From positions 1-41,077 of the forward strand of contig CAMHMN010000018.1 in the NCBI GenBank assembly GCA_946186245.1: 41,077 nucleotides of DNA. Reading direction: 5' to 3'. The notes under the pieces were generated by a model, which did no database searches, was not told the DNA's origin, and worked only from the letters and a program-made list of their open reading frames with translations. Source of the stretch: an uncultured Clostridia bacterium. GTDB lineage: Bacteria > Bacillota > Clostridia > Oscillospirales > Acutalibacteraceae. Below are positions 7,492 to 11,057 of this stretch, piece after piece (position 1 is the stretch's first letter; every line of letters begins with the position of its first letter). A program made the position numbers and the translations under genes.

Positions 7492-8781
7492 TCAGATTTT
7501 AATATCGCTGAATACCTGTATTTTGTCTATTTCCTCTGCCGACCTGAATTTATCATAGGAATGCACGGCTTCGGAATTACCCATTTCCGCCTGAAGTTCG
7601 CTTATGTACTCCGAACGGGTCTTGACCCTCGACACACGGCGAACGGAACTGCTTCCTTTCATGGCTCGGCGGGCATTTTCCTTTGCACGCTCCTGCGGGG
7701 ACATATAAATTGTTTTTTCCTTATTTTCTCTTCCCTTTCTGGAATAAACCGACTGCTCCTTGTGGGTGAGATTATCCCACCAGTCGCGGATCGCGTCAGT
7801 GCGTTCATTCAGCAGGTCACGAATTGCCCTTCCCTCTGATCTCGCCCAGTACATAAACACGTCGTAAGCGTTGTCGGTGCTGACCGGCATGGTATTCAGC
7901 AAGGGACTGTTGGGTCTGGCAATGCTGATCACCGAGATTTCCGGAGGATTGTTGAATCTGGTGCGGGAGGGGCTGCCAAGTCCGCGCGTCACATACATCT
8001 TGCTGCGACCAATGCGGTATTCTCCGGAAGTGTAAGCGATCTTATTGTTTCTGATCAGTCTGTCAACAAAAGGAATTCTGTAGTAACCCCCATGGGTTCC
8101 TCCGGCAAGCACCAGTGTCGCTCCCCAGCGGGAATAAGCCTCAAATCCCTTCGGAAAATGGGTGAGCAGTATGACAGTGGCATCCTGCGGACACTCGCCC
8201 AGAGCCTCAAAAACATCGTTGTTGCGAACCTTCTGATACTTCCAGTCCTTCACCGGCTTATTGGGATCCGCTTTAAGACCGGGGCAATAGCCGTAGATAT
8301 AAATCTTTTCACCGTCAACATTAATCTCCGCACGCGAATTATTGAGTATCACTCCGCCGGCTTCGTTGACCGACTTGACGAAATTCTTGTGCAGGGTGCC
8401 GTTGCCCAGACGGAGATCTTCTTTTCCGGGCACCATTACAACGGGAATGTCTCTCCCCACTGAATCGAGGAAGTCATAGAACGCGTCGACATCGGCTGCC
8501 TTCGCGTCGCCCATATTGCCCGCAAACAGAATGTAATCCGGATGTTCTCTCCTGACCTTTCGCGCCAGCTCGGAATTCTTGTTGCCGAAAGACATGCTGT
8601 GCAGGTCGCTGATCACAACAAACTTCATGCCGTCAAGCACGCGAGGCAAGCCGTTAATGGTAATAGCCTTGTGTGTGGTGGAAAGAACATATTTGCTTCT
8701 GATAAATTCCATATAGACCATACACACGACAAATGCCGAGAGTATGGTAATGATCCAAAGCCAGTTAGGCAGCAACATCAT
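7492..8781 (-). CDS. Membrane-anchored metallophosphoesterase-like protein with altered active site
   Basis: 429 residues: one N-terminal membrane span (about 5-24), a calcineurin-like phosphoesterase domain resembling YkuE (about 45-285), and a charged C-terminal tail rich in Arg, Lys and Glu. ISDLH (57-61) carries the first metal pair and HFPKG keeps the late His, but other hallmark positions differ: GD is GN (AGNMGDA), GNHD is GKED (MVPGKEDL), and GHTHGG is GGTHGG. The HGGYYRIPF end of the fold is intact, so the homology is clear. Catalysis is doubtful; a binding or scaffold role is possible. The ATG at 8781 is chosen because GGGGGA lies 4-9 bases upstream; a TTG at 8793 is the only longer option. 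It has its own promoter at 8820-8848. Confidence 0.85.
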   Translation of the reverse strand: MMLLPNWLWIITILSAFVVCMVYMEFIRSKYVLSTTHKAITINGLPRVLDGMKFVVISDLHSMSFGNKNSELARKVRREHPDYILFAGNMGDAKAADVDAFYDFLDSVGRDIPVVMVPGKEDLRLGNGTLHKNFVKSVNEAGGVILNNSRAEINVDGEKIYIYGYCPGLKADPNKPVKDWKYQKVRNNDVFEALGECPQDATVILLTHFPKGFEAYSRWGATLVLAGGTHGGYYRIPFVDRLIRNNKIAYTSGEYRIGRSKMYVTRGLGSPSRTRFNNPPEISVISIARPNSPLLNTMPVSTDNAYDVFMYWARSEGRAIRDLLNERTDAIRDWWDNLTHKEQSVYSRKGRENKEKTIYMSPQERAKENARRAMKGSSSVRRVSRVKTRSEYISELQAEMGNSEAVHSYDKFRSAEEIDKIQVFSDIKI

Positions 8782-8819
8782 TGATTCCCCCAATTATGGA
8801 AATATACTTTACCGTTCAT

Positions 8820-8848
8820 ATTATACATGATAAAAAGCGTTTAGTCTA
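8820..8848 (-). promoter_or_regulatory. Sigma-A promoter for the metallophosphoesterase-like gene
   Basis: Minus strand: -10 TATAAT (8820-8825), 17-base spacer, -35 TAGACT (8843-8848, four of six consensus bases). It lies between the noncoding-RNA terminator and the start codon, giving a leader of about 30 bases. Confidence 0.7.
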
Positions 8849-8904
8849 TACCCTTAATAATAAATTTACGAACTTTTTATCTTGTTATTTTTGTCACATG
8901 CGGC

Positions 8905-8940
8905 AAAAAACGGTACCGATATATTTCTACATCGGTACCG
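8905..8940 (-). terminator. Near-perfect terminator of the large noncoding RNA
   Basis: On the minus strand CGGTACCGATGTA, loop GAAA, TATATCGGTACCG (8911-8940), then six T (8905-8910). The 13-bp stem with a GNRA-type loop and U-run is about as strong as intrinsic terminators get. It faces left, matching the promoter at 10218-10246. Confidence 0.92.
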
Positions 8941-9121
8941 CACCGGCTTTATGCCGCCGAAGCTATTTTGTTTTTGCAATGTCCTGTTGCTTGCTTTTTT
9001 CGGACTCTTCTTTCCTTGTCCGTTCCCGGCGAATATCGCTTGGATTTCTTCGCCTCTCAAAGCTTAATTGTACTTTGGACTCACCCTTTACATTTCATTT
9101 CTTGTCAGCATGTAAAACGTT

Positions 9122-9163
9122 CTTTTCATCGAAGCTCACTTGCTTTCATCGAAACTCAACTTG
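9122..9163 (-). repeat. Tandem 21-base repeat inside the large noncoding RNA
   Basis: 9122-9142 and 9143-9163 are two adjacent copies sharing TTCATCGAA, then GCTCACTTG versus ACTCAACTTG. In the RNA both read as CAAGUxGAGxUUCGAUGAAA-type units. Adjacent near-copies suggest a duplicated structural module or protein-binding site. Confidence 0.7.
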
Positions 9164-10217
9164 GTGAAGCTTTAAGTTTTCATTGGACTCGACCCTTTGC
9201 TTTTTTACGATCTATAGTTGTATATCTCGTTCAGGTCTTATTTCATCTTTTTTACAGCTTACGCCTCTTTAAGATTGATTACATCGGATTTGCCGCTGCT
9301 TCATAAACCTGTCGGGTTCTTTCTATTTCAACATTGATGACTGTTTCTTTTGCTCAGCGTAAGGCGTTGTTCGCACGACGCTTCTTGCTTTTTTGCGGCT
9401 GTTGCTTTTTCTTCGCTTTTCCGCTTTTTGTATCAATGATCTGATCTTCTCCTGTATAATTTTTACTGCATGCGACTTATTACTTCATTTCTTTTTCATT
9501 CTTCTCGTAACTGACATCCCGCCTTTTTCACAACTGGCTGGGATCATCTTTCGTCGCTTTCTTTTCTTTCTTCTTTTCTTTCGTTACACTCTATGCATCT
9601 TTTTTCTTATCGGTTTCACTTTCTGATGCATTTTTTTATTGCAGTAATTTTTATACATTCTGCGCGGCTTTTATCTGCTTGATTTCTGTTTCGCGTTTCT
9701 GTTATGTTTCCCGTTTCCGTCAGCAGAAACTCTGATTTGTTTCAAGCGGTTTTCCGTTCCGCTTGCTTGCTTACATTATCGAAGCCTTTGGAATTTTCAT
9801 TGCTTTTGTAACTCCAAGGCGTACTGTTCATAAACATTGCACAGGCTTTTATCTTGCATCAATCGATCTGCTTTGATTTTCATCTCGGATCGCTTGCTAT
9901 AAAAGCTCTCGGTGCTCATTGCCTTTTTTGTTACGCAGCAATTTCATACTCGTGGGCTTCGATTCCGATGTGCTGTGAGGCTGTTACTGCATCCATCGGC
10001 GTCACCCCGTTTCTTTTGTATTGCCTATTTGAGCTCTGTTCTGAAAAGGAATTAATCATTTTCATTTCAGGTTTTTCCCATATGAATCCGATCTCAGGCA
10101 GCTTACTTTTTTCGGTCTCATTTTTTCGATCAATATTTTGATCTACATTTCTTTACGTAAGACTTACTTTTTCATCCTGTCTGTCCTTAACTTTGCCGCT
10201 CTCCTAAGCTCAACTAT

Positions 10218-10246
10218 AATATAACACATCTTTTTTAGTTTGTCAA
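10218..10246 (-). promoter_or_regulatory. Strong sigma-A promoter of the large noncoding RNA
   Basis: Minus strand: -35 TTGACA (10241-10246), exactly 17 bases, -10 TATATT (10218-10223), with an extended -10 TGT just before it. Predicted transcript start is near 10211. No ribosome site and start codon pair follows. Confidence 0.88.
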
Positions 10247-10305: not shown

Positions 10306-10334
10306 TTGACACATCGAAAAAAAGCGTGTAAAAT
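10306..10334 (+). promoter_or_regulatory. Sigma-A promoter of the first DUF1292 gene
   Basis: TTGACA (10306-10311), 17 bases, TAAAAT (10329-10334). It is divergent from the noncoding-RNA promoter; the two -35 boxes are 59 bases apart across an A/T-tract-rich segment (about 10247-10305). The leader is about 100 bases and starts with a small hairpin (GGTTTT/AAAACC). Confidence 0.85.
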
Positions 10335-10440: not shown

Positions 10441-10809
10441 ATGAGTAACGAGATCAACACACGCGGCAGAGACTCCGCAGCTGAGCATGACGAAGAAGAT
10501 GACAGCATCATCTCCCTGATCGACGATGAAGGCCGTACATCCGAATATGAAATTCTTGACGCCATCGAGACCCAGGAAGGCAAGTTCGTTGCGCTTATGC
10601 CTCTTGCTTCCATCGACGACGATACCGGCGAAGCGGAGTACATGATCCTTCAGGTGGACGTTGTGGACGATGAGGAGGAACTTGCCGAGATTGAGGACGA
10701 GGAGCTCCTGATGGCGCTGGACGATCTCTTCCGCGAGCGGTTCAAGGAGCTTTACGGCGACGAAGACGAGATGCCTGCGGCTGAAGGCGATTCTCTGGCG
10801 GGTGCATAA
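10441..10809 (+). CDS. DUF1292 family protein (YrzB-like)
   Basis: 122-residue, strongly acidic cytoplasmic protein. The central region (DDSIISLIDDEGRTSEYEIL, about 20-39, then EGKFVALMPL and a DDEEELAEIEDEELL acidic stretch) fits DUF1292, a small Firmicutes family of unknown function often encoded near ruvX in other genomes. Both ends are acidic and probably disordered. ATG at 10441 follows GTGAGGA by about 13 bases. A paralogue is at 35393-35698. The downstream 340 bases hold a structured RNA rather than a gene. Confidence 0.85.
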   Translation: MSNEINTRGRDSAAEHDEEDDSIISLIDDEGRTSEYEILDAIETQEGKFVALMPLASIDDDTGEAEYMILQVDVVDDEEELAEIEDEELLMALDDLFRERFKELYGDEDEMPAAEGDSLAGA

Positions 10810-10869
10810 ATTCCCGCCCGCACGCACACAATAATATAAACATTGCTTAATATTCTGCCCGATACGCGA

Positions 10870-11057
10870 ACTGTGCTTTTATAACCCTACAAATTATTTT
10901 TAGGGAGCCAGGTCTCCGGCGGTGGATTGCAGACCTCCCGCAGTCTTGAACTGAGTTCGGAAGCAGGGAGCGAGAAGCCGTTGGGATGGCACCCACCTGT
11001 TACTTTTAGTAGCAGGTTATTTAAAGCACATTACGGTCGGGCGGGATTATTTTTTTC
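10870..11057 (+). ncRNA. Structured small RNA, candidate 6S RNA
   Basis: Between the DUF1292 stop and the convergent LRR gene is a GC-rich folded segment. Closing stem: ATAACCCTAC (10881-10890) with GTAG-ca-GGTTAT (11009-11020). Internal helices include AGGTCT/AGACCT, CTCCCGC with GCAGGGAG and the tip GAAC-TGA-GTTC. A 10-bp 3' hairpin (10995-11004 with 11008-11017) uses the same 3' strand as the closing stem, so two folds exclude each other. TCCCGCCCG right after the DUF1292 stop (10812-10820) also complements CGGGCGGGA (11038-11046), which a T-run (11050-11056) follows. Length, long imperfect helix and alternative 3' hairpin fit 6S RNA, the RNA polymerase-binding regulator, but I cannot confirm the class. 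No separate promoter is evident, so it may be made as the 3' end of the DUF1292 message. Confidence 0.55.

Follow-up and report, generated by a model that had tools for sequence, protein, structure and literature searches.

A terminated RNA gene beside DUF1292 and 6S RNA in Clostridia carries reiterated start-stop cassettes suggestive of ribosome engagement

6S RNA exerts decoy control over transcription, and no bacterial RNA is known to us that would act as a decoy of the ribosome and so control translation globally. Sponge RNAs of the CsrB/RsmY type repeat one short motif, in the form of GGA loops, along the molecule. Translation of hardly anything is encountered in minigenes, two-codon mini-ORFs such as the lambda bar minigenes. 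According to passages of PMC8708949 that cite earlier work, minigenes of two codons with a strong Shine-Dalgarno sequence (SD) and a UAA stop can trap ribosomes or shed peptidyl-tRNA; a strong SD lets the ribosome re-initiate in place and the UAA forms shed peptidyl-tRNA faster. The same passages report that the paper's own minigene, the only one tested there, did not slow growth on induction.

The RNA gene described here lies in a stretch of 41,077 nucleotides from an uncultured Clostridia bacterium (Acutalibacteraceae), which was analysed as a whole and is referred to as the window (features in Table 1). Comparison of sequences establishes that this locus has a transcription unit which is conserved and has covarying helices, and that a cassette is repeated in it. 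With minigenes and two-codon mini-ORFs (for instance mg2 in axe-txe, in the passages of PMC8708949 that deal with it) the cassettes share the SD distance, the AUG, the one or two codons and a stop that is often UAA; they differ in being reiterated on a dedicated terminated RNA instead of standing in the leader of a gene, and in their fixed GAGUCC spacer, their AAG/AAA variants and, in this genus, the accompanying large folded domains. The likeness to 6S RNA (RF00013) is that of an RNA gene and possible decoy of a central machine, which is moreover a physical neighbour; there is, however, no match in sequence or structure, and the presumed target would be the ribosome rather than RNA polymerase. 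Unlike the sponges of the CsrB/RsmY type, the motif repeated here is an SD-start-stop cassette that contains GUGAGUCC and has a conserved frame, not a GGA loop. OLE, ROOL and GOLLD, finally, are also long, structured and standalone-looking bacterial RNAs, whereas the present RNA has no Rfam match, genus-specific domains and repeated, putatively ribosome-binding cassettes.

The preliminary description had the unit framed on the minus strand by an extended promoter and a terminator, and both were located (Table 1). The promoter is kept in congeners, and in an alignment of 12 genomes the terminator has 12 consensus pairs, four of them with two-sided changes, and 0 of 132 cells unpaired; the RNAs of other genera, by eye, have a strong -35/-10 in front. 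We infer that the RNA is made as a discrete transcript. A strong promoter-like site also occurs at 10306-10334 on the plus strand, where it faces DUF1292 and 6S at about 60 nt from the divergent promoter of the RNA. On the minus strand no ORF of at least 80 aa was found between 8905 and 10211, nor one long conserved reading frame, which, together with promoter, terminator and relatives, upholds the earlier claim of a separate transcription unit that contains no protein gene. Equally upheld is the claim of an unrecognised class. At the gathering cut-off, Rfam gives only 6S at 10849-11051 in the window and no family for this RNA; up to E 5, five matches between 8700 and 10450 are all below the cut-offs, at chance level, and none is credible. 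No RF00013 match was found within 8905-10213, i.e. the RNA itself is not 6S. The Rfam 15 library, we assume, includes OLE, ROOL, GOLLD and HEARO. In the open-access literature (subscription papers lay mostly outside the search) we found neither a description of such an RNA nor DUF1292 and 6S RNA mentioned together, and the passages of PMC8040213 that were covered hold nothing on this RNA.

Table 1. Positions of the predicted RNA gene, its elements and its neighbours in the window
Feature	Position	Strand	Details
Metallophosphoesterase gene, downstream, outside the unit	7492..8793	-	PF00149
Intrinsic terminator	8905..8941	-	14-pair stem at 8941-8910, 4-nt loop, T run
Predicted RNA gene, 1.3 kb	8905..10213	-	start placed from promoter
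Cassette g: GUAAAGGGUGAGUCCAAAG-UAC-AAU-UAA, AAG replacing AUG	9064..9091	-	score 27.4; 26.1 bits
Tandem 20-base unit, two cassette-like copies (UUCGAUG)	9124..9163	-	period 20, 2 copies; by eye
Cassette d: AAAGGGUCGAGUCCA-AUG-AAA-ACU-UAA	9172..9201	-	stop is codon 4 in 12/12 genomes
Start-stop element UCCG-AUG-UAA	9279..9288	-	AUG in 12/12 genomes
Structured domain 2, closed by long-range 15-bp helix	9453..9657	-	30 pairs, 96.6% of 357 cells paired
Structured domain 1	9743..9942	-	55 pairs, 94.1% of 639 cells paired
sORF MDAVTASQHIGIEAHEYEIAA*	9931..9996	-	20-22 codons in 12/12 genomes
Cassette a: SD GGGGUGA, CGCCG, AUG of sORF	9994..10014	-	score 14.3; aligned in 12 genomes
5' hairpin GAUCAA/UUGAUC	10128..10143	-	6 bp, 3 two-sided, 3/72 cells unpaired, 12 genomes
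Promoter TTGACA, 17 nt, TG-T-TATATT	10218..10246	-	11/12 consensus, extended
DUF1292 gene, divergent neighbour	10441..10809	+	PF06949, E 1.2e-10
6S RNA behind DUF1292	10849..11051	+	RF00013, 66.4 bits

The cassette reads AAAGRGUGAGUCC-R-AUG, with AAG or AAA as alternatives to the AUG, and is mostly followed by one to three codons and an in-frame stop. A profile built from 22 RNAs, namely the window and 21 loci picked by eye for showing cassettes, gives 90 elements; 17 of the 90 were dropped for low score or redundancy, which left 73 non-redundant cassettes with a score of at least 15. An in-frame stop within four codons is present in 56 of these 73, as compared to 24 in the +1 and 14 in the +2 frame. 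Split by start, a near stop follows in 27 of 39 AUG and 29 of 34 AAG/AAA cassettes, against 21-25% for the same codons elsewhere in these RNAs (AUG 71/279, AAG 134/647, AAA 301/1266); the figures are 45/73 and 28/55 when a looser, masked profile is applied to all loci, which also admits chance matches. A near stop is missing from 12 AUG cassettes, each of which is the first listed of its RNA and opens an sORF of 8-30 codons. What is conserved is the stop as such and not its sequence (UAA, UAG or UGA at index 2, 3 or 4), and the codon after the start favours C at the third base (NNC 33 versus NNU 10 in the AUG set, 29 versus 4 in the AAR set). A properly spaced SD precedes 43 of 45 AUG and 28 of 28 AAG/AAA short cassettes against 21% of random places, a test that is partly circular as the SD belongs to the profile. 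The AUG cassettes have the complete build of a minigene, i.e. SD, AUG, one to three codons and a stop; the AAG/AAA forms do not. The pattern AGAAAGG..GUGA.UCC presumably resembles a sequence complementary to the 3' end of 16S rRNA, for which the exact pattern was found in 0 of 12 genomes, where rRNA may be missing or masked. GAGUCC before the AUG was absent from all 291 long-ORF starts (TCCN occurs in one). These were ATG starts with an SD-like word, in ORFs of 150 codons or more, called by a crude six-frame script and not taken from curated genes. GAGUCC would therefore not seem to be the ordinary ribosome site.

The RNA in the window contains three elements with a score of at least 12, two of which reach 21.0 and 27.4, and in 1000 dinucleotide shuffles a mean of 0.02 elements reaches 12 and none ever reaches 21. 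When the window is left out of the profile, the RNA has three elements at 12 or above and two at 14 or above, and at 12 the whole window has four, all of them on the minus strand and one of them outside the RNA. The tandem unit of the preliminary description is real, with a period of 20 instead of 21 bases and two copies that, by eye, are cassette-like. Cassette d consists in all 12 congeners of AUG, AAA or AGA, any codon and a UAA or UGA stop, its codon 3 occurring in six forms (ACU, GUA, AUG, AUC, AGU and GGG); the fixed length of three codons, the free codon 3 and the switching of the stop would point to selection on the act of translation. In cassette g, AAG is present in all 12 genomes and codon 4 is a stop in ten of them; the start-stop element has an immediate UAA in nine. 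The remaining cases count against a decoy: the near stop of cassette g is lost in L041 and L042 (2/12), and the start-stop element opens a longer ORF in L040, L041 and L044 (3/12).

Our favoured, still tentative reading is that of a structured RNA which stands alone, has a strong promoter and a terminator, and would work through reiterated translation-initiation cassettes. Ribosomes would bind the cassettes, initiate or, on the AAG forms, stall, and terminate almost at once; as they would initiate and terminate at once, they would be engaged without protein being made, and the RNA would be a site for such engagement. The cassettes, in other words, speak for real translation of almost nothing. 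We favour ribosome engagement as the function because the stops are conserved, the codons are free, the second codons tend to end on C and minigenes offer precedents; a decoy or sink would then be the likeliest purpose. If, instead, GGRGUGAGUCCRAWG is a binding site for a protein or another RNA, the RNA could act as a sponge in the manner of CsrB and the start and stop codons would look the way they do only incidentally. This would agree with AAG and AAA not being good starts, with GAGUCC lying outside the normal SD and with DUF1292 as the constant neighbour in ten genera, and a weak GGR/YCC mini-hairpin of 3 bp is found in 41 of 72 cassettes (mean of the shuffles 35.9; 61 of 2000 shuffles reach 41). 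Against a sponge stand the stop, which is kept as a stop rather than as a sequence, and cassette d, whose length is fixed and whose codon 3 is free, and we consider it unlikely.

Initiation at AAG or AAA codons is very inefficient. They are at the same time the most sharply conserved forms and the main puzzle, in that a decoy needs binding without efficient initiation; because the stop behind them is conserved, they would nevertheless seem to be read. The AAR cassettes could possibly be started from another codon 9 nt upstream, for instance GUG, because AUG or GUG is common there (49 of 55 AAR versus 47 of 73 AUG cassettes, p 0.0017); a properly spaced SD for that upstream codon is found in only 2 of 28 AAR cassettes. 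In L152 (1480-1900) AUG and AAG cassettes alternate, and each AUG ORF, of 30-32 codons, traverses the next AAG cassette in another frame.

Cassette a opens an sORF that contradicts, together with the micro-ORFs, the earlier statement that the strand has no coding potential. The sORF has 21 codons in eight of the 12 genomes, 22 in L040, L041 and L044 and 20 in L042, and its amino acids vary. Its start codon is part of a CCGAUG that pairs with CAUCGG over a 23-nt loop (9999-9965), and because this helix is paired in 72 of 72 cells and invariant in 12 genomes (and hence devoid of covariation evidence), it may gate the start of the sORF. Read as a polycistronic mRNA, the RNA would encode several micropeptides, an sORF of 15-30 aa first and others after it. 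Many of the RNAs do have a 5' sORF (MDAVTASQHIGTEAHESEIAE, MDTQCEQFHSEVCWAFTMK, MVSEIEQQFRTARLAGAH), and in two other genomes there is, by eye, a second one with PADYAPME; most cassettes, however, encode one to three residues without a fixed sequence, and a messenger needs neither covarying folds nor 1.3 kb in which indels are mostly out of phase, which makes this reading distinctly improbable. In other families (L155, L160, L167, L150, L156, L161 and L163) the first cassette carries an sORF of 16-18 aa (MVSEIEQQFRTARLAGAH, MVTEETSYSFAGLAAAL and similar), which in L155 and L160 is followed, by eye, by a second sORF with PADYAPME.

The folding of the RNA was evaluated by sliding RNAalifold over 12 genomes (ten stretches, 20 column shuffles per stretch). 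The fold z-score is -5.4 to -9.4 in nine of the ten stretches, and covarying pairs exceed every shuffle in six; the region of the cassette array (9303-9044) is the least structured, with z -2.0. Two-sided changes occur in 21 pairs of domain 1 against a shuffled mean of 7.0 and in 13 pairs of domain 2 against 3.9, a number attained in 0 of 500 shuffles in either case, and slid controls are 32-39% and 24-46% paired, respectively, a comparison that favours the domain structures as they were derived from the same sequences. One of five measures, further pair types, is within the shuffled range, being equalled or exceeded in 99 and 61 of the 500 shuffles. The helices covary in related species, so that the structured RNA of the preliminary description stands; three of the five helices named there (10128-10143, 9743-9765 and 9516-9544) belong to the consensus of the 12 genomes and show two-sided changes, whereas those at 9593-9631 and 9001-9022 are present in the window and, by eye, in some close relatives and absent from the consensus. 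An expanded tandem repeat of the AAAAAGCCAAAAGGCAAG type occupies the counterpart of window 9640-9560 in domain 2 of L035 and L036, and in L041 the 5' part of the RNA contains a GAAATC repeat.

The domain models R2 and R3 recover congeners outside the training set at 111-194 bits (both models in L037, L039 and L043, R2 in L045). In the loci of other genera (50 sources) neither finds anything below E 0.4, and among 98 genomes R2 is present in 16 of the 18 of the genus and in 0 of 80 others. By this comparison the fold is genus-specific and not shared across genera, and it is the cassette that persists between them. Two strongly covarying domains and a length of 1.3 kb would suit a large structured RNA in the style of OLE, ROOL and GOLLD, in which the cassettes are a minor matter. 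That style, which had been suggested earlier, was not supported, given that there is no Rfam match, that the one large domain searched in whole genomes (R2) is confined to the genus and that the part reaching beyond it is the cassette and not an ornate fold; we give such an identity little chance.

A DNA search of 148 genomes retrieved the RNA in 16 of the 18 genomes of the genus, its own included. Homologues were found in 15 of the 17 other genomes of the genus with a best match of 71-88% identity per genome, and with the same upstream neighbours; the matches in G001 and G006 span only 85 bases, and the domain-2 model recovers both. In all 14 relatives whose contig permits the test, the RNA has DUF1292 and 6S upstream of it in divergent orientation; the contig of a fifteenth begins within the RNA. 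The metallophosphoesterase, by contrast, is downstream in only 10 of 15 genus relatives. In other genera the nearest downstream long ORF is mostly unrelated between genera (15 loci, 13 of them with a long ORF, L119 and L125 having no ORF of 100 aa before the stretch ends); in L047, L107 and L127 it has the reverse orientation, and in L050 it is the amidohydrolase, which comes second downstream of the RNA in the window. Because the genes downstream change and DUF1292 and 6S upstream stay, the RNA is best seen as a gene of its own. Its place upstream of, and on the same strand as, the metallophosphoesterase gene, with a terminator at the end, could have meant a cis-acting leader that governs this gene by translation-coupled attenuation; with no constant same-strand gene downstream, and with the constancy all on the upstream side, control of this kind is very improbable and was rejected. 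A decayed protein gene, or mere chance, found nothing in its favour, has next to no probability and was likewise rejected: promoter, terminator and covarying helices are conserved, indels are out of phase, i.e. not multiples of three, in 82-92% of cases in ten of the comparisons with 11 congeners (29 of 45, 64%, in that with L042), and the region has three plus-strand ORFs, of which two are interrupted in all 11 relatives, either by a stop or by a change of length, and the third (8781-9167) contains stops in 10 of 11 and is open in L056 over the part tested.

Beyond the genus, DUF1292 and 6S are found beside cassette RNAs in 13 loci of nine other genera, which makes ten genera with its own (L047, L048, L050, L107, L108, L110, L113-L115, L127, L129-L131). 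These RNAs carry up to eight cassettes and have no recognisable share of the window's fold; L047, L048 and L050, which adjoin DUF1292 and 6S, have a stretch like ATGTAAAGGGTGAGTCCAAA. The DNA search matched eight genomes outside the genus: G052, G053 and G079 have the RNA by DUF1292 and 6S, G146 has a second type of short RNA (see below), and the others were set aside, as G027, G133 and G082 (C2, C4) match the promoter end only and G019 42 bases, with no adjoining DUF1292. A 17-mer of the cassette, with at most one mismatch, is present in 32 of the 300 family genomes and 23 of 135 genera, and the reversed pattern in four genomes. These matches define 27 extra family loci. Ten have DUF1292 in the locus, eight show cassettes away from DUF1292 (L111, L112, L118, L119, L121, L122, L124 and L125), and of the other nine (L109, L116, L117, L120, L123, L126, L128, L132 and L133) several may be chance; L109 has two cassettes with sORFs.

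At higher taxonomic levels, the cassette model finds 99 of 295 genomes of the order at E 0.1, against about 30 expected from the E-value, and 18 of 245 genomes of the class at E 0.01, against two or three expected, six of the 18 belonging to the own order. Among 30 6S loci sampled across the order, four, the window included, have a divergent-strand cassette with a score of at least 14, and the other three are from one other genus of the family and from two other families (one each); 6S linkage as a general rule is ruled out by this count. The 22-base pattern occurs in 20 named records, 18 of which have Ruminococcus, Clostridia, Clostridiales or Bacillota in their titles, and the exact-match hits in Fontibacillus and Saccharibacteria records have a single model match each. 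A phage origin was discarded: viral_contigs gave four stretches with one exact 17-mer and one model match each, judged near chance, and no cassette arrays in viral records that would mark a phage- or plasmid-borne element.

A second type of short RNA was observed in L052 (the same place as L138), L112, L139, L140, L142, L165 and L208, i.e. in several families and, in the case of L208, outside the order. Its promoter is shortly followed by a cassette whose ORF has three codons (AUG-UAC-ARG-UAA and similar); 226-550 nt further on come AGAGAGGU and an sORF of 9-10 residues that ends at the terminator (MLDIKSEQK, MLDIKTENK and MKLDLKSEQK, by eye).

Because the other genera keep the signals while the rest of the RNA changes, the comparison points to a type of RNA not described so far, one whose role would be to engage ribosomes and not to encode protein. 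Such an RNA might titrate 30S subunits, initiator tRNA or peptidyl-tRNA, and as a decoy or sink of ribosomes it might tune translation in the way 6S RNA does for RNA polymerase; the large domains in the window's genus are unaccounted for by a decoy. The furthest-reaching form of this proposal, which we regard as possible and rather unlikely, is a class of RNA genes across one order of Clostridia whose start-stop arrays capture ribosomes, a translational counterpart of 6S RNA and adjoining it in at least ten genera, with the AAG forms as 30S traps that rarely initiate. It raises the question why AAG or AAA should take the place of the start codon with a conserved stop behind it. RNAs of this kind are easily missed by gene callers, their ORFs being too short, and by structure-based discovery, their fold differing between genera, and therefore further classes may await discovery. 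If ribosomes are engaged in vivo, these RNAs would provide a genetic handle on translation control in a large bacterial group of the gut and rumen.
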